In this document: positions 1-59,000 of the stretch, one piece after another | Layout: every line of letters begins with the position of its first letter | Position numbering within the stretch: position 1 is the stretch's first letter | DNA from: Plumapathes pennacea | Lineage: Eukaryota; Cnidaria; Anthozoa; Antipatharia; Myriopathidae | Direction of reading: 5' to 3' | NCBI GenBank assembly: GCA_964036295.1 | Contig: OZ038463.1 | Location: forward strand, 5,509,274-5,573,273 | DNA: 64,000 nucleotides | The notes under the pieces: generated by a model | Seen by the model: the letters and a program-made list of their open reading frames with translations, nothing else | Databases searched by the model: none | Told to the model about the DNA's origin: nothing | Position numbers and translations under genes: made by a program

Positions 1-8399
<8,399 letters not shown>

Positions 8400-24515: not shown

Positions 24516-26369
24516 ATGTATTCATTGAACGTCGTCAAAATGAACTCAGTGATTTTAGCAATGCCGCTTTTTATTATAATTCTGGGAAGTGTAGTAGTAA
24601 CTGCTTTCTCAAAGCCTGAAGACGACATGGAAAACGAAAATCTTGGAAATACACTTTCAGAGAAGCTGGAAGAACAAGGTAAGGTTAATATTGAACATGT
24701 ACATTTTCACATTCAACCGTGGAGGATAAATTGAACATTTCTTCTTATTGTGGTTCTTCTTCGCTTTGTTTGATATATTTTTGACATGTCATTGTAGTCT
24801 CCATTTCAACCCAAGCAAAGAGTTTGAGTGAATACGTACGTAACTGAACAGTTTCTAAATTTGATCCAGGGAAAGTCAGAGCAAACTCTGAACCATATAA
24901 TAGTGAAATAGAGTCCAATCTTCTCATTGATATGCGCGTTGCCGGTATTCTTTTGATAGAATGGTAACAAAAAATAGTGAGCAATGTTAGTTTTATCATA
25001 CCACCCACCAAAGTAATGCTTTTCCATGAAGTTGTTTTACTCAAACTAATTTTTAAAAAATTTAAGCGCGATTATTTTTTATGTGGAACTTCTCAGTGTC
25101 TAACACCAAAATAGTAATTTAGAAGATTAATAAAGGCATTATGAAAGTGTAACTTGATTGTGTTATTAGAAATGAAATCAAAAAAGTAAATATGACAAAG
25201 GAGCAGCTGCCGATGTCAATGTGAAACACAAAATTCACTCAACCGAGAGAATGAACTTCTGAACAGTCAAATGAATCTAAAGGGGTGTAACTATCCACGT
25301 GAAAGCATCACCGAGAACACTAATAGCAGTATTTGCGTTGTTTTTTTTTGAGCGGAATTAAGGCTTATATCCACTCACAAATTTAAATTTCGACATGAAA
25401 CCATGGCTGTGAAAGATTTATAAAGGGCACACTTTGCTTTCAATTACAGCCAAATATAATAAAAAATGTAATGACGTTTTCCATTGTAAAAGATAAATGA
25501 ATCACAAACTCACATGAAAGGAGTTTTTCTTTATATATTTTTCAATATGTGCTAAACTTACGTGCGACTGTAGCTGATGTTATCAACTCTTCCGGAACAC
25601 CGGAACGAATATTGATGAAAAAACACTTTGAGGACCGAGTACTATTATACCTGGCATCAATCTGACCTCCACGTTTCTTGTTATCACACCATGGCCCACT
25701 GAATTTAATTATTTGAACTGCTTATATGATATATGTTTTTCGGAACTAACATGTCAGCTGCAGGTCTCAGTCCTTCAAGCTGTGTACTTTCTCGCTCACG
25801 CGTCACGCTGGCGCGAACTAAAAGATTGACACACAGATTGCAACTCTACCCTTCCAAGCAAACAACACTTTGTTAGCTGGAACAGATGAAAAAGCTGTCA
25901 CGAAGCCCTCAAAAATGAAACGCTTACTGCCAGAAACACACAGGGCGAACCTGAAATATGTTGTCACAAAAATCTTCCCCATGCCGTTGTTCTTATTTGC
26001 TTGGATAATTGTAATTTGGGATGCGGATTTTGCTGGTATATAAAATGTACGTACTGTACCGCCACAATCACCGGACACAGCGCATCGACAGAAGCAAATC
26101 AAATCTATCTATATACCGCTTCTTTAATTGTAATTTTTTAGAAACAGGATACTTTGCTGTTCCTACACTGACTAATGTCCACTAGTTCTCAGCATGAAAA
26201 TATCTCTATGAATAGTGTCCTCACTATGATGCCACTCGTTTTGTCAGTTCAATATTTTGCTTTTATATTTCATGCAACAAGCGCATAAAATGCAGGTCAC
26301 ATACTACTACTACTACTACTACTACTAATAATAATAATAATGATAATAGTAGTAATAATAATAATAATA

Positions 26370-26449
<80 letters not shown>

Positions 26450-29400
26450 AATAAATGATAATAATACTAATAATACTAATAATAATATAATACTTTTCGT
26501 TTTACCAAAATGTACGCAAGTCATGTAAACTATTTCTAACTCCTCGCACTGTATCTTTTCTATGCAGATAACTTGTATAAAAGCAACCCTTTCATATCAT
26601 ACCTCGACTGGCCCCGATTGCATTTCACTGGCCAGTTCCAGGCCGACACGGCCACGGTCAACAACGACGTCAGAAATTACAACCTATCAAATTTCACCGC
26701 TTGGAACCTGTTTCCAATGCCTGATGGAAACGGCCAATGGAATCCAAATGGGACTGGGACCTTTCGACTAATTGGAGGCAAGGTCACCAGTGTCTGTTAT
26801 GTAACCGGAATCTGTATTGCGGCCCAAGGTCAGGACCCAATAATTGGTAGTACTCTACAAGGTAAAGTGTTTAGTATTGATTATTCTTCTGATAAAACTA
26901 AAACCAAGGTAATTACAGCGCCAATTAAAGAGGCAGTAAAATCGCTAACGAGAAAGTCACATTATTTTAGTGAACGCCATTTAATTAGAATATCAATTGA
27001 TTGGCTAAACTCATAGGGCCGATTTTTTAAACAAGGTTTAGACCGCGGTTAAGATAGTCATGGTCTAAGCATTAGGTTCAAACCATGCATATCGGAACAC
27101 AGCTATAACGTGGTATTTATAAACCGACAGGGCGACCCTGGTTCGCTAAAAATGCAAACTAGCTTTTGGCAAACCCTGGTTTACAGACTCCGTCTAACCT
27201 TCAATTTAAACATAAACAGGGTCTAAGTTAGGATTCGTTTAAAAAATCGGCCCATAGAGTGGGGACTCGCTGACCTCTGAGGAACAAGCGTTCATAAAAT
27301 GAACAGAAATTGACAGAGGACACAGTAGAAAATATAAAGATTAAGTATAAATAAGGTAGTTTTTACAATTTCACAATTTCCTTAGAACGAGGAACACGGA
27401 CATCCGCCAAAATGGTCGACCTGGACCCCCAGTCGATGGACACCAGTACCATATACGGCTGGCAAGTAAGCATCGGCCATTTCTTTACTGCTGACTTTCG
27501 TCCGGCTCCACTTACACACCTGTGGCAAAAAATGCGTGACGACTCATCTGTCGATGGAGATAGAGCGCTGGGTGCCAGTTACCAGTCCTCCTTGAAAAAT
27601 ATCACATGGTTCGATGGTGCGGGAAGTTCATCGTTTATACGTCAACTCCGAAGGTCCATGGCCGCGTGCAATTGCAAAGAATTATCTATTCGGTTCCATT
27701 TGGATATGTTCAACCCGGAGACCTCGAGTGAGCAGTTTTTGTTGGGGCGCATAGTTGGAACCATTGGGGTGTTAGGCTCCCGGACTCCTCTCTTGGCAAG
27801 CCCAAGTCGCAATCTCGAAGCAGCGTACCAAATTGTCAGAGATGCGCCTTTCGTTCTAGACCAACAAAACAGGAAGATCCACGTGGATTTGGGCAACAGT
27901 TTGCCGATTACAATGAATGGTAGTCATTATGTCAGATGCCTCGGGACTTTGGCTGTGGGATTTGCTAATAACAAAAAACAAAGTTGCTTTAACGATTTTG
28001 ATTGGATTGGAATCTTGCCATATCGTACTGATGATTGGTACACATTGACAGCTGGGGTACAGTCTTTTCCAAGGTTTGGACGAATGACGAGGATGCAGGT
28101 GCAGAAAGCAGCGGAAACTCCCCTGGTTATCGCCGAGGTGAGTGCAAAACCTCCCGAGAGTGAAATATTTTTTTTCTTTTTGGTCCCTCTTTGAAGGCAT
28201 AACCATACAACACACAAAAAAACCTTACAGAGAAATATGAAAGCTTCACAAATCAGAATTCTAGCGTAGTGGATGTGATGCTCAAATTGCGCGAAACACT
28301 GTGTAGGGAGTTTTGTAAATTATACTTTAATCTTTTCGCGCTTGTCTTGTCTATAATACAATTATTGTAACAACAATAGTAAGATTATTTTTAGGTAAAA
28401 AGAAAAAAACATCTTGAACTTATTCACTCACTTACTAACTCTTTCGTTTGTTTGTTTGTATCAATCTTCTGCTGATACAAGTGCATGCCTTTTAACTCCA
28501 CTATAGCTACGCTTTTGCCGTAAACGAAATTCTGACCAGTAATACACATTATTTACTGAACACCAAGTGTCTATTTCAAGACCTTTTTAAAAGTACCTCT
28601 AACCTATGCCCCCTTTTCAATCTTCAGGTTCAAGGCACATGGCCCAATATTTCCTGTAAGAGAGTGCTTCTAAGGGAACCTTCAGATGGCCTTCTAATTC
28701 GTCCACAAGGAGACTGGGTCTTTCGACGTGACGCCATGGAACCTGTTCATTTTGACTTATTTGCTACCGAATTCGGTAAGGCTGTCAGCAATGTGCCTGT
28801 GATTATTGGAACAGCTTCAAGATTTCTAAGAAATTTGACAAAATCCTTGAAAACGGGTGACCACTTTGCAGAGCCAGAACTTGATGTACCACCACTGAAG
28901 CTTCCCCAAGTGCCAATTATAACAAATGGCAGCGGAATCGCATCAATCTCAATCCAAACGCGAGATCCCGGAAATCCGAGAAAAATTATCGATGGGCAAA
29001 TCTATCGCATTTCTTATAACCTGCCCTATCATCCTCCCAAGAAAGAGTACGTCATCCGTATTCTAGTTTGGGACAGCTATCATTACCAATCTCCGCCAAA
29101 CTGGAAGGACAATGTGTTTCCCATTTTCAAACTCTACGCTAACCTGTTTCCTGTCATGACAAGTGAGTTTATTGATCTTGGAAACTTTCACCAAGTAGTT
29201 GAGAACAGACGGTTGATTAAGATGGCAATGAGTCTTCCCACAGAGCATCCTAACTACATGCCCGTCAGTAGAGACCTATCTAAAGCAAAGATGAGAATGA
29301 TCGTAGAATGGCTTTCGCAAGAGCAACCTTTATTTGACGGCGATAAGAAGGAATCGGCTGGAAGTAGTCATAAATCAAAACCTCTTAGAAACAACTACAA

Positions 29401-32400
29401 GCAATTGAGTAAATCATCTACCATATTTGAAAATTCGATTTCACCGCATCCATCTCCAGAGGTTCTACTGGACAAGCACAAAACACACCGATTTTACCCA
29501 ACAGATCAGGTACGCAAAGATTTACCACCAGATGTGATGCAAACCAATTTACCTTCAGTTAGTTATGGACGGCGTCGTGCTCACACTAGGCCGACAATTT
29601 CAAATATCTCGAAAGCGTCGGCCCTACCGATCCGTCAGCGTAACTCTTCTACCCATACGTCAACTAGCTTAAAAAAACTCTTGCCAAAGGCAGCTATCAA
29701 GAATACGGAGACATTACGTAAAATTAAAGACTATACTTTCAATAACAAACCTCGCGTTGAATCTAAAAGAGATTCAAAGTTTTTAGCAAAATACTATTCG
29801 CTAGAGCAACTCAGGGCTGATCTTCAAACAGCGCTCGGGTTAGAACACGCTACTATTCCGCCTTATTTGACGGCTTTAGCATCGATCAAGAAGGAACACA
29901 ACACGGAGGTGAAACAAGTACTCAATACCATCCTTGTGCAAGAAATGTTACACATGGCTCTCGTGTCGAATTTGCTAAAAGCCATAGGCGGGAAACCTTC
30001 TCTCACTCATAGTGGATTTGTGTTAAACTACCCAAGTGTATTACCAGGGGGAGTGCACCAAGGCTTAGTTATTCCACTCGAGAAGCTGTCTAAGAAGCTC
30101 ATCAAACATGTTTTTATGAAGATAGAAGAGCCCACACTGACAGTGACAGCTTTGGAAGATAGAAGATTGATCATTGAAAACTTGGAGAAGGATTACCAGG
30201 GGTACAGTCATCATGAGTCGCGTACGTCGAATAAAAGTGGCTTTTCTGGAACTCCGAGCAAGCGAAACCCATTCCACGAAGATCGCAACTCAGAAACCGA
30301 AGAAGACGAGTATCGCTGCCTTTCGCACGACAGCTTTATAAATTTTCATTTTGCGGAAGAGTCGATATTTACACGGCATAAAAACACGATAGGCATGTTC
30401 TATAACCACATCCTCAAGACTATAGGCTATCTGACAAAGTGTGGAAAGGACAACAGCATATTCTCCGGAAACCCCATTGAGCAGTTAACTTCAGATCATT
30501 GGTATGCCCGCGATTCTTGTGGCCATGGGGAAGTCATCAAAGTGACCGATTACTCCAGTGCTGTAACAGCCATTAGAGAAATAGTGGAAGAGGGGGAGGG
30601 GAGCTCTCCATGCATGCCAGCGGCGGCCAGTCTGGAAATTGCCGACTTGTCTCATTACTTTGCGTTTTATTCTTTGTATGCCGGGAGGGTCGTTAGCCTT
30701 CGTGATTGGACTGGAAAAGAGCGACCCAGGGATATGTCGTACACCGAATTAATTTGGTGGAAGGTACATATAATTGGGGCTTGAATAGAGCCGTTTTCGG
30801 ATGACTGTCGAAAACCAAAACCAAAGTAATCACACAGGCCAATCACAGAGACTGAGAGAAAACAGTTCAGCCAATCAGAAGCCAAAGTAATTCACGTTTG
30901 GTCTTGCGTTTGGTTTTACTTTCCAATCAGTAATGCGAGTACACGCCATCGCTTGCGTGAGAAGTGTTTGGTTTTGGTTTTGGTTTTGTTCCTGATTGGT
31001 TGAGAATGCTGACAAACTTGTTTGGACCAATCGGAAAGCGTAGCAAACGCAAAACCAAAGCAATCACACGATTACTTTCGACAGTCATCTGAAAACAGCT
31101 CTATTTGTGATTGTATCCATACATTCACCTGACATCTACCAGTCATCAATGATCCATAACTCGTTTTATTATATACATACTGAGACATACTCACGAAAAA
31201 GCCATATCGTAAAACTTCGTACGCAAATGAGTTCTAGCCAATGAGAGGCCGCGAACGACGCTTTTCACACGTGAAAAAAATCGTTCGTCCAATCACAAGC
31301 TGCGAACGACGATTTTTCACTACTTTTAAAGGGTTTCCCGGTCCCATCATAAATGTCTCAGTATGTATATAATAAACAGAAAACATCATGGAAAGTGCTT
31401 TGTATAGTTTTTATTCACTCGTTGTTTCGTATCATAAAACTCACTCGCTCGCAAAGCCTCGCTTGTTCGTTTTATGATACTTCACAACTTGTGAATAAAA
31501 ACCGTACGCGCGCACTTTCCATGAAGTAATCTCTATATCCCTTATTTTGCCTGATGATTTAGATTTTTATTACAAGAACGTATGACTACCGTTATTCAAT
31601 CATTCACATACCTCCGTCAAAAGAAATGTTACAGGCAAATTATTTATTACGGCCAACCTTTGAAGATGAAGTTCAAACAACCTTACGAGTGTTCAGAACC
31701 TCATTCCATCTCCCAACTATCGGAAACGTGTAGGAAGAAGTATGTTCTGCTAACAAGCTCGACTATCTCTCTTGAACATGCACGAGCCCTATGTGACTAA
31801 GCCTGTGGAAGCCTCGTTTCGCAGTTTCAGCAGTTTGCACACCGACCCGTACGACCGGTGTACTGAGACAAAAAGAAACTCAATAAAGGAAGTCTAGACG
31901 TTGGCAGAGTCTCCGACTTTTACTCGCAGGCTCCGCCAGCAGTAGCTTGTTCCAGGCTCTCGTGATACTGAAACGGCTGCAAAAAGTGGCGCGCAAAAGA
32001 CTGGGGCGAAGGAGGGAGGGAGAACTCCCTCCCGCCTTCGCCCCAGTCTTTCGCGCGCCGCTTTTTTGCAGCCGTTTCAGTATCACGAGAACCTGGAACA
32101 GGTTATGTCAGCAGAGTACTGTAAGTTCAAGCGCGCACAAAAAATCAATCGTGCAAGAGTATCCAAATAAGAGGCAAATGCAGTGTTAATAGATATTGAC
32201 AAAAATGAACGCTAAAGTTAATTTGCTATTTAGAGTCGCCTTCGCCTATATATGATATATGCTTCTTCTAATTTTAGAGTCTTCGACCATTTGCGAACAT
32301 ACACTTCTTCTCGCTTTAGGAACTGCTAGTGTTCTAACCCTAATAATTTTGTTGTTGTTGTTGTTGTTGTTGTTTTTTTGCATACAGGTCTGTAAAAGCA

Positions 32401-32720
32401 TTTACACGTTTGACGGTAACGAGGTTAGGTTTGACCCTGAAGGAGTCTGGCCTCTCTTGCCAAATGCCCGGATGTCGGACTATATCCCATGGAGTCGACC
32501 CTATCTGTTGTCCTACACGTTCAACGTTGCATACGCCAAGCTGCTGGCCTCGCTTGAACACGTCTTTAATGGTCATCCCAATGACATCAGTGACGCCATG
32601 GGACTTATGTTCTCCGTTTATTTACAAGCGAAGGAACTAGTGCGCACGCCCATTCATCTACACGGGAGCCCGGATGTTGGGCCCACCGCTGGGCCAACGT
32701 TTGAGATGAGGAGAGTCTAA
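24516..32720 (+). CDS. Secreted VioB-like (iminophenyl-pyruvate dimer synthase family) ferritin-like protein
   Basis: Five exons: 24516-24678, 26568-26861, 27386-28137, 28628-30763 and 32388-32720 (stop TAA). All introns are GT-AG, phases 1, 1, 0 and 0, giving 1225 residues. A signal peptide covers about residues 1-32; a second Met at 24540 may be the true start. The N-terminal half follows the bacterial VioB plan: LDWPRLHFTGQFQADTATVN near residue 66, then KMVDLDP and MFSVYLQ-type elements, and the conserved YMPVSRDLSKAKMR near 610. A basic Ser/Lys/Pro linker (about 640-790) precedes the ferritin-like domain: first helix Glu809-His810 in LGLEHATIPPYL, second helix QEMLHM with Glu842 and His845, then TIGMFYNHI, and SHYFAFY with His1079. 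Bacterial VioB couples two indole-pyruvate imines in violacein synthesis. The animal protein's substrate is unknown. Several N-glycosylation sites (e.g. NLSNFT) fit secretion. AATAAA occurs at 32744 and 32849. Confidence 0.85.
26304..26490. repeat. (CTA)n/(ATA)n/(GATAAT)n microsatellite
   Basis: About 185 bp of imperfect trinucleotide repeats ending 78 bp upstream of the second coding exon of the VioB-like gene. Confidence 0.95.
27017..27252. mobile_element. MITE with GGCCGATTTTTTAAAC ends
   Basis: A 236-bp element in intron 2 of the VioB-like gene. The left end GGCCGATTTTTTAAAC is the exact reverse complement of the right end GTTTAAAAAATCGGCC. CATAG is duplicated at both sides (27012-27016 and 27253-27257), or a shorter ATA core if the extra G/C belong to the element. 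Confidence 0.85.
29800..30720 (+). other. Ferritin-like domain (VioB type) within the fourth coding exon
   Basis: Covers about residues 795-1100. The first pair of helices keeps the di-metal signature Glu...GluxxHis (Glu809, Glu842, His845). A Ser/Glu/Asp-rich insert of about 50 residues (about 928-978) separates it from the second pair. In the second pair the motif is IGMFYNHI, and the last helix reads LSHYFAFYSLYAGR, where bacterial VioB has a Glu seven residues after the aligned Ser. Function as a metal oxidase is therefore plausible but not certain. Confidence 0.75.
30784..31106. mobile_element. MITE, family B (ATAGAGC...GCTCTAT)
   Basis: Inverted ends AATAGAGCCGTTTTCGGATG and, read inward from the right, AAATAGAGCTGTTTTCAGATG, followed by ACTGTCGAAA in both arms. 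It starts only 20 bp after the donor of the fourth coding exon of the VioB-like gene. A fragment of the same family lies at about 42778. Confidence 0.8.
31166..31376. mobile_element. Palindromic MITE (TACATACTGAGACAT ends)
   Basis: Ends TTTATTATATACATACTGAG and CTCAGTATGTATATAATAAA are reverse complements. Inside, GCGAACGACG motifs occur in both halves. Lies in intron 4 of the VioB-like gene. Confidence 0.8.
31387..31523. repeat. Palindromic repeat (CATGGAAAGTGC...GCACTTTCCATG)
   Basis: A 137-bp foldback with paired segments TTTTTATTCAC/GTGAATAAAAA and GTATCATAAAAC/GTTTTATGATAC around a centre rich in CGCTCGC. Directly follows the 31166 element. Confidence 0.85.
31948..32100. repeat. Near-perfect 153-bp hairpin
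   Basis: The arms are almost exact reverse complements from TGTTCCAGG to CCTGGAACA, with a GGGAG-AA-CTCCC centre near 32020. Lies in intron 4 of the VioB-like gene. Confidence 0.9.
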
Positions 32721-32854
32721 GTAACGCGACTTTAATTGATAATAATAAAAACTCAGTCCAATTCAAGATAAAATATATAGTTGCAGGTTACATGTCTTAA
32801 TTCTCGGACGTAAGCTAAGAGACTAAAATATATATAGTTGTTGTGTTCAATAAA

Positions 32855-56064: not shown

Positions 56065-59000
56065 CGCCAGAAATTTCAGACATCCGGTTGCGCCATCTCG
56101 GAAGAGGCATCAGGTTTCACGCTGACAGCCGCTCAAGAAATAACAAAGAAATGTATGGGATCTGATAATAAATTGTGCTTTTCGCTTAACTGAAGCACGT
56201 TCGTAAAAATGTCTGGGCAGCATTCGGAAGAGGAAAGCTTCCTAAACACAACAGTACAAAAAATATTTATCTCCGATAAAATTCGATGTGTACTTTTTTG
56301 AATTTAAAATTTCGGCCGACGTAAGAAGGGATTGATAGCAGAATACGCTCAAAACCGGCTACTGTCACTTTTTAAGCTGCATTTAATACAAGAACCTTGG
56401 GTACAACGCAAAATGTCTACCCCGTACCTGATTGTCGAAGGATTGAACATCTCCTTTGAAGCCTCAGTCAGTCCCCTGGAGCAAATTCGATGTGTACTTT
56501 TTGTGTTTGAATTTGCAGTTCACAGCCAGCCATGGCGAATACCTCCCGTGAAATACGCTGACTTCGGATGTTGATATTTTGGGCTGGGAAGCTCCAAATC
56601 GCATGAAAATTGTACCAAACGAAAGCTAATTTCAACTAGGTCGTTCAGCGGCACGTCTCCTAAACGTAGCAGTCTCTTTTTGAACCGGAGAAACCCATCC
56701 CTCCCCCACCCCACTGAGGCAAAGTACGTAACAGTGTTGAATGTGTGAATGGCGCATGCTCATACCGCACGCCGCTGGGAAAGACCGGAAGCAATCGTGG
56801 ACGCAAAATGTCTGGAATTTCTGGCGATGTACTACTACTACTAAAATAATTTTCAGGCGCTATAATGACAAAGCTAAGATAAACAGTTTTATAGGAATGA
56901 CGAGCGAGGGTGGAGGGTCCGTGGCTTTTCCCATCATGACCTTGGCCTTTTCTATTCCTCCGTCCGTGGCACGTGACTTCTCTCTGGGAATTCAGTCCTG
57001 CGGTATGATTGCAGCGGCCTTCACCATTTTCTGGATGCGCGTACAAATAGAATGGCATTCCGTCTTATTTTCTTCCTTGGGAGGGGTCCTGGGCATTGTT
57101 TTTGGCCTCGAGTGGATTGACCCGCAATTAACGCCACCTCAGAAGAAGATGGGGTTCGTTTGTGTTTGGTTCTCGTTCGCGTTTGCTCTGTTTCTCCTGA
57201 ACCGGTACCACAAGCGGAGGACGTTCAAGACCATCCCCGATTTAAAGGCATGGAAATGTGTCGTGCTGACTGTCACAGGTCTGTCTGTCTTCAGTCACAT
57301 TATTATCCGTTTCACTATAAGTTATTTACAACAGTATATTTTCCGCAACACAAGCAACGTACAAGAAAAATGGGGCTTGAAAGCGGCGATGTAACATGTG
57401 AGAGACAGTGAGACGGAGTCCTTTTGCGAGACATACCACATTTATCTTATCCAGAATGTGAGTAAGGCCGACTCACAACGCGCATGTGCTAAAACAAAAG
57501 CCCTATGATTAGACTAATAAGATTTGTTATAAGTTAAACTACAATTGTTTTATGTCATCACAGGTTTTGCTGGAGGTATTTTTACTTCCGTTTCGGGAAG
57601 TGGGCTGGACATCTGTAGCTTCAGTATCCTCACCTTACTTTTCCGCGTCACTGAAAAGACGGCCACACCGACTTCCGTTGTTCTTATGGCGGGAAACACC
57701 GTCGTCGGTTTTTACTGGCGTGTGGTAAGTTTACAGACATAATCTAGATGGGCCTTTCACTGTAGTGTATAGTCATATTTATTTCTAATGTACGCGATAA
57801 AAAGCCCTGTTCTTGAAGTTACATTTAAATGCAAATTAGTATTTTAACAATTGAACGTTGTATATTGAAATCAGGATAACACTATTCTTCAGTTTAGTTT
57901 CTGTATATATTGTAATACGGCCACAGATCTATCAAATGCCGCATTTACATGTCATTGTTTTAACAAATCTGAAGTTTCCGTTGAGTGTAAGGGTGCACAC
58001 AGTGTTTGTATGTGTGAAGTCACTATATGGAATCTTAAATGATAGATAGAGAGAGGAAGCAATGTTTGCAAGATATTTTTCATTTGTCACATTAATTTTT
58101 TATTAGCATGACCCAAGCTGTTTATAGAAGTTATTGTACACTTGGGGCGACAAAGTAAGATAGAGATACTAAAACGAGCAGATAGATCGGCGGAAAAAAC
58201 ACGTGTTACAAAGAGGTTATTACACGGGAAGCCAGTGCAGTACGGCGGGCCGGAGTATTTGCACGAGTTGGTTTTATTTTTTCGAGCCTGCTTCGGGCGA
58301 GAAAAAATAAAATTGAGGAATAAAAATACAGCCGTTTTGCACGACTTTTCGTGTAATAAACTGTTTATTATACGACAGACGAAGCAAACGTTCTCGCCGC
58401 GCGTAAAATGGAACAAAAAATGACGCGTTCGTAAACTTTGATTGCGAAAATTGATCACGTAAGCTAATTAACCAGTTGATCTGGTTCCTGACAAGTGCAA
58501 TACGCTCCCATATTTGCACTCGTTTTGGTCTTTTATTTACACTCGAAAATGTGAAGTTGTGTCATAAACTGACTCGAGAGAGTGAGAGAGTAGATGACAT
58601 TGTTGAGATTGAACTGTCATGACTACCCTATAAATGTCAGTAAGACCCGGGAGTTGATGTTCAAACAGATGGAAAATAGATACACATTTTACACAGCTGC
58701 GCAATCTTCTTGTTCTTCTGAATCTACAGGTAATACAGGGAGGTGTGAGCACGGAGGTGTACGAGTTCATGGCCGTGTGTGTCCCTATCGTGGTCCTCGG
58801 TGCCCCTCTGGGTTCAGTTATCGGAAGCCATTTTCATCGACAACTGCTTGCGGCTCTGGTTTACGTGACGGACAGCACGGCCTTGATCAGCGGTTTTGTT
58901 CTGGTGCCGCAGACTACCGTCCTCATTATTGTGTCCATCAGTATTGTGATCAGCGGTTTCGTGTTTTTTGGCGCCATCTCGTACATCGGCCAGAAGATCA

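Follow-up and report, generated by a model that had tools for sequence, protein, structure and literature searches.

A spliced VioB-like gene with features of secretion belongs to a gene family in the genome of the antipatharian Plumapathes pennacea

VioB helps to make a purple pigment in bacteria. Its order of two domains, an N-terminal domain followed by a ferritin-like one, is common to VioB (iminophenyl-pyruvate dimer synthase), to the chromopyrrolic acid synthases of the RebD/StaD type and to the product of a gene located at 24516-32720 (+) of the window analysed here, that is, the whole stretch of 64,000 nucleotides from Plumapathes pennacea (G000:C2:5509274-5573273, on the 37.9-Mb contig C2; the genome totals 290,015,204 bases over 24 contigs). 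The start motif is ILDFPRFHF on the VioB/RebD/StaD side and YLDWPRLHF in the animal protein, the sequence YMPSTRELS of the former resembles YMPVSRDLS of the latter, and both have a NAGPP-like end; introns in the gene, additional cysteines and a hydrophobic extension at the N-terminus set the animal form apart from VioB/RebD/StaD. A stand-alone ferritin-like protein of the Protein Data Bank (PDB), 3hl1 (317 residues), shares with the animal protein the ferritin-like domain and six aligned residues; it is matched over the ferritin-like part alone, its chain being devoid of the N-terminal domain. The whole plan is shared, on the other hand, with a set of bacterial VioB-like proteins, whose local identity to the animal protein is ca. 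27-35% in the N-terminal domain and, in segments of the ferritin-like part, 28-53%. On balance we consider it probable that the gene stems from one fused bacterial gene and encodes a secreted metalloenzyme of the VioB superfamily that oxidises an amino-acid-derived substrate. If so, the animal's own genome would encode a secreted and expanded metal-dependent family from a bacterial pigment-enzyme superfamily, and a testable gene would be at hand for small-molecule chemistry carried out by the animal itself.

The gene is real and spliced. Its five exons give an uninterrupted reading frame of 1225 residues plus a stop codon, and its introns are all of the GT-AG type, with phases 1, 1, 0 and 0. 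Identical exons were recovered by a spliced-alignment script that compared the 1225-residue protein with the genomic DNA, so that the start, the stop, the four introns and the protein length proposed in a first-pass annotation of the window were reproduced as given. Exon 1 (24516-24678, + strand as for all features of the gene) holds the start codon, a hydrophobic N-terminus that is likely a signal peptide, and the beginning of a short linker. After intron 1 (24679-26567, phase 1), the VioB-like N-terminal domain begins with ISYLDWPRLHF in exon 2 (26568-26861), which also encodes C131 and C137, and goes on, beyond intron 2 (26862-27385, phase 1), in exon 3 (27386-28137), where C353 is found. 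Intron 3 (28138-28627, phase 0) precedes exon 4 (28628-30763), which covers the end of the N-terminal domain (MPVSRDLSKAKMR), a linker and the ferritin-like domain PF12902, and intron 4 (30764-32387, phase 0) precedes exon 5 (32388-32720), encoding a C-terminal tail that ends in DVGPTAGPTFEMRRV ahead of the stop. The LDWPRLHF start, the MPVSRDLSKAKMR segment and the C-terminal ferritin-like domain named in the first-pass annotation were thus all found.

That annotation described a single gene, which is in fact a member of a family of 16 loci; the interest of the observation, larger than first noted, lies in the family being an animal one. PF12902 has 28 matches in the animal genome, grouped into 16 loci on five contigs: three on C2, one on C5, six plus a C-terminal fragment on C7, one on C9 and four on C10. 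Six full-length loci lie in a row on one contig. The N-terminal domain was detected for 11 of the 16 loci, none of them on C10; the C2 copy at 6.977 Mb has it ca. 14 kb upstream, as assigned by the script. The paralog models stem from spliced alignment of the window protein to the genome by a script of our own, a procedure in which small exons are unsure and stops may be bypassed by calling introns. With that proviso, the intron at window residue 153 (intron 2, phase 1) is matched in place and phase in nine of the 11 full-length models and lies at 145 or 149 in the other two; the intron at residue 403 (intron 3, phase 0) is matched in nine and lies two residues off, at 405, in two; and that at residue 1115 (intron 4, phase 0) is matched in seven and was called at 1117 or 1097 in the other four. 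Paralogs on other contigs repeat the plan and have introns at corresponding positions, so that the gene represents more than a chance arrangement. The nearest paralog is the C5 copy, with 54-57% identity over shared columns; for this pair the nonsynonymous divergence (dN) is 0.46 and the synonymous divergence (dS) is saturated, and the C9 and C2 copies differ by a dN of 0.313 and a dS of 1.548. The dN/dS ratio is ca. 0.34-0.57 in six pairs of young copies.

Could the gene be the product of an assembly chimera or of bacterial contamination, as the first-pass annotation had asked? The protein sequence is bacterial-like. Set against this are the four GT-AG introns, the 37.9-Mb contig and the paralogs on five contigs, on which ground this candidate was rejected, together with a match to the N-terminal family of Peptidase_M1 in the window and the presence of Wnt matches in the genome; the probability of such an artefact is in our judgement negligible. 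Wnt (PF00110), a family not known outside animals, has 63 matches in the genome and none in the 14 prokaryote controls.

The bacterial relatives were gathered by a scan of genome contigs with two peptide patterns, which rendered 144 stretches and 96 relatives, the best 80 loci being kept; this is a biased sample, and the bacterial counts given below apply to it alone. In these relatives the N-terminal and the ferritin-like domains are encoded in one open reading frame (ORF) or in two adjacent ORFs. Seventy-nine units with both domains were assembled, 20 of them fused, and 18 of those 20 were aligned for the residue counts. One domain alone was seen in L090, L099, L117 and L123. The bacterial VioB-like family is itself of note for its fused and two-gene forms and for the ebo-type and LodA/LodB-type genes that lie by some of its loci.

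How far the animal protein is from true VioB could be gauged in several ways. Its sole Pfam match is PF12902 (E-value 1e-51, 176.4 bits against a cut-off of 22.3, residues 802-1087), and a PDB sequence search with exon 4 led to the ferritin-like protein 3hl1. In the numbering of the window protein, the N-terminal domain extends over ca. residues 63-640, the linker over ca. 640-793 and the C-terminal ferritin-like domain over ca. 794-1221; among eight exon-4 proteins aligned, a long linker is present in the window and C5 copies only. The VioB model TIGR04492 (NCBIfam) gave 20.1 bits at residues 569-635, not reaching its cut-off of 1250. Of 11 genomes that were searched, two had a true VioB, scoring 1855.6 and 1851.1 bits; both carry VioB-like genes at separate loci, and BLASTP at an E-value of 1e-4 gave no match between the window domains and either true VioB. 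When true VioB was used as query, 20 of the 293 genomes in the order of G008 matched at an E-value of 1e-8, some of these matches being weak and partial. Ten strong matches with 34-39% identity to VioB are here called chromopyrrolate-synthase-like, a label that reflects this identity and the general character of RebD and StaD, not a family model; 10 of 12 such loci were used, making up with the two true VioB a set of 12 VioB/chromopyrrolate-synthase-like proteins. Comparison of the animal profile with the profile of this set (hhalign) gave a probability of 99.8%, with an E-value of 9.3e-29 over 834 columns and 19% identity, and comparison with the 18 fused bacterial proteins gave an E-value of 7e-198 over 889 columns and 35% identity. 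The homology to true VioB therefore runs end to end, with both domains collinear, and the kinship over the whole length proposed at first is borne out. Identity as VioB is not: judging from these scores and from the separate clade of true VioB and the chromopyrrolate-synthase-like proteins, whose branch measures 1.6-1.8 changes per column, the gene belongs to the wider VioB superfamily and not to VioB proper, and VioB-like is the better name. Because the score is far below the cut-off and the clade is separate, the coupling of two tryptophan imines cannot be carried over to the animal protein. The best matches are not restricted to ordinary ferritins either; an ordinary ferritin was considered and rejected, the whole two-domain plan being present.

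In a tree of 102 rows, made by a quick method and rooted at the midpoint, the 11 animal rows form one clade (support of 100), and the 12 VioB/chromopyrrolate-synthase-like rows form another (100) on a branch of 1.59. A subset of 35 of these rows was analysed under a mixture model, with VioB and its kin as root: the animal clade (100/100) joins 12 fused bacterial rows (100/99), and the two-gene rows fall outside. Separate quick trees of the same 35 rows rendered the group of animal and fused rows with a support of 91 for the N-terminal domain and 98 for the C-terminal domain. When two of the lone-domain C10 copies were included, the eight animal rows formed one clade (100/99) within the fused group (98/97). 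The animal proteins are thus monophyletic among the sampled rows, and their nearest sampled kin, as placed by these trees, appear to be bacterial VioB-like proteins, above all the fused forms. The simplest reading of the trees would be the transfer of one fused bacterial gene followed by duplication, with loss of the N-terminal domain on C10. A viral carrier was also looked for: a scan of viral contigs gave 37 pattern matches, no relative being among them. Among the titles listed in a literature search of one paper collection, none was on an animal VioB-like gene.

Six residues of the ferritin-like part, encoded by exon 4 (28628-30763), may form a metal site. The window protein has all of E809, E842, H845, E903, E1060 and H1079, a conserved set of E, ExxH, E, E and H, and the six are all kept in 10 of the 11 full-length animal copies, in 18/18 fused bacterial proteins and in 12/12 VioB/chromopyrrolate-synthase-like proteins. 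The six positions are aligned in 3hl1 with E, ExxH, E, GEG and H, and bacterioferritins also align with the ferritin-like part; true VioB compared with solved structures gave no weighty match (one, with an E-value of 0.95). By analogy with the ferritin-like family, we infer that these residues bind a metal pair, probably iron. The alignment with 3hl1 and bacterioferritins would likewise suit some other ferritin-like oxidase or metal protein, such as an amine or phenol oxidase, a metal store or an antioxidant, having the fold and the metal without any coupling, and two of the lone C10 copies keep the six residues with no N-terminal domain detected. Plain metal storage would not, however, need the large N-terminal domain that 11 animal copies and 79 bacterial units retain, and we regard this alternative as somewhat unlikely, the most serious of those weighed here. 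The C10 copies (G000:C10:3382574-3402755) are four ferritin-like copies without a detected N-terminal domain; two of the four keep all six putative metal-site residues and the other two have lost some.

Features that would fit the secretion proposed for the protein were likewise found. Its most hydrophobic 17-residue stretch, residues 12-28, has a Kyte-Doolittle mean of 2.94 and resembles a signal peptide. The window protein has 12 cysteines, of which C131, C137, C353, C413 and C1065 are each present in 11/11 animal copies. Among the 18 fused bacterial proteins C131 is found in four and the remaining four in none, and none of the five occurs in the 12 VioB/chromopyrrolate-synthase-like proteins. 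The cysteines number 9-23 in the animal models against 2-9 in the fused bacterial proteins. N-glycosylation-type sequons number 6-20 in the animal copies (10-11 in the window protein), counted without overlaps, against 0-7 in the 18 fused bacterial proteins, counted with overlaps. Moreover, 34 of 77 bacterial loci appear to have no N-terminal extension, since their nearest methionine lies only six residues ahead of the PR motif; this test is crude, and many of the other bacterial loci are poorly scored in it. Taken together, the hydrophobic N-terminus, the invariant cysteines and the sequons probably reflect secretion.

A course of events can be proposed in which an ancestor of the animal most likely acquired one fused VioB-like bacterial gene, which would then have gained introns, a signal peptide, cysteines possibly engaged in disulfides and glycosylation sites, and would have multiplied to the present 16 loci. 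In the resulting extracellular enzyme, E809, E842, H845, E903, E1060 and H1079 would hold the metal pair and the N-terminal domain would form the substrate site, so that, with oxygen or peroxide, a small amino-acid-derived substrate could be oxidised and perhaps coupled. A bolder version holds that a bacterial oxidative-coupling enzyme was externalised and expanded, and that it turns oxidised amino acids into dimers with a role in colour or defence, as an animal counterpart of bis-indole-type biosynthesis in bacteria; this we hold to be unlikely.

A true imine-dimer synthase, coupling two oxidised aromatic amino acids outside the cell into a pigment or a defensive compound such as a bis-indole, would agree with the end-to-end homology and with the six residues shared with the VioB/chromopyrrolate-synthase-like proteins. 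Such an enzyme would also agree with the 37 matches of the amino-oxidase family PF01593 in the animal genome, including four long tandem frames on C5 at 17.35 Mb. The VioB model score of 20.1 bits against 1250 and the long separate branch of true VioB speak against it, as do the distance of 1.5 Mb between any family locus and the closest PF01593 match found, and the absence of a VioA-type family from the commonest families next to the bacterial genes; we therefore deem it quite unlikely. The tandem frames (G000:C5:17348372-17360621) are of ca. 490-530 residues and look intronless, each spanning nearly the whole PF01593 family in one open frame. Within the window, a Pfam scan of 142 of the 178 frames of at least 75 residues, with short exons outside its scope, found three families, PF01593 not among them. 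GFP (PF01353), tried as a cnidarian marker, had no match in the animal genome, a result of little weight, the controls being also silent.

The neighbourhood of the bacterial genes was considered for 73 of the 80 loci, the remaining seven being without a recognised core gene. Of the ebo-type genes A, B, C, E and F, two or more were found within six genes in 13/73 loci and three or more in 9/73. The latter loci (L062, L065, L069, L083, L102, L108, L124, L126 and L128) come from Bacteroidota, Pseudomonadota and Actinomycetota. These counts refer to BLAST clusters, each named after one representative: by NCBIfam, EboE (L064) is above its cut-off, EboA (L108) is above the domain and below the subfamily cut-off, and EboC (L091) is below, while the EboB and EboF clusters carry putative names based on their Pfam families. 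A LodB/GoxB-like cluster, whose representative scored 251 and 255 bits, under cut-offs of 400, is present in 5/73 loci, and in four of those five (L069, L086, L117 and L123) LodA domains lie near it; LodA_N is partial in L117 and L123, both lone-domain loci. The stretch 3468-15720 of L069 (Streptomyces) contains a fused VioB-like gene together with LodA, LodB-like and EboB-, E- and F-type genes. In 11/73 loci, L114 (8115-8858) and ten others, a member of a cluster represented by a protein with ABM and glyoxalase-like domains is at most two genes away from the VioB-like gene. Seventy-five families were recorded for 90 of 109 immediate neighbours, and PF01593, the family of VioA-type oxidases, is absent from the 25 commonest of them. 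In fungi, PF12902 genes adjacent to lodA and lodB-like ones were reported in 2015 (PMC4417212), and the Nostoc ebo genes are tied, in a part of PMC6282210, to the export of a scytonemin precursor; the words VioB and ferritin are absent from the main text of the ebo papers PMC6282210 and PMC5133447. The ebo-type and LodB-like neighbours, present in a minority of the bacterial loci, fit an oxidative amino-acid chemistry.

Several observations weigh against the proposal of a secreted metalloenzyme of bacterial origin. With regard to the metal, the full-length C9 copy is without E842 and H1079, and the ferritin-like residues may be less than the whole active site, because VioB is called a haem-dependent oxidase in a passage of PMC5577590 and RebD/StaD are described as haem-containing in a part of PMC10851217. 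Stops occur within the matches on C7, C10 and C2, and one in a spliced C7 model, so that several copies, including those with lost residues on C9 and the two on C10, may be damaged. LodA_N (PF17990) and EboE (NF035939) have no match in the animal genome, and the bacterial neighbours are therefore not present as partners in the animal. With regard to the origin, the animal is the only eukaryote sampled in the trees, the 102-row tree places the animals next to the 79 bacterial VioB-like rows taken together, with a support of 87, and an approximately unbiased (AU) test did not reject the grouping of all 25 bacterial VioB-like rows against the other 10 (p 0.084).

Because of this last value and of the order in the 102-row quick tree, the nesting of the animal genes and the direction of transfer are favoured, not proven, by the sequence comparisons: of the old horizontal transfer suggested at first, the bacterial affinity stands, and the direction stands as a preference. 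The AU result would also suit vertical descent from an old eukaryote gene, with losses in other eukaryotes and no transfer, as would the PF12902 genes reported in fungi in a passage of PMC4417212. The animals nevertheless group with fused bacterial rows in the combined, the N-terminal and the C-terminal trees, and vertical descent appears to us rather improbable.

Beside the VioB-like gene, an ORF at 6718-7191 (-) of the window matches the N-terminal family of Peptidase_M1, as does a second window frame, and an ORF at 56741-57391 (+) has a weak match of the TauE/SafE sulfite-exporter type, scoring 34.9 bits where the cut-off is 32.6. The stop codon of the VioB-like gene is followed by two hexamers of the poly(A) type, one 24 bases away and the other, at 32849-32854 (+), 129 bases away. 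Elsewhere in the genome, a dense run of Wnt matches at G000:C10:6999896-7097607, some of them with stops, suggests a tandem Wnt cluster.

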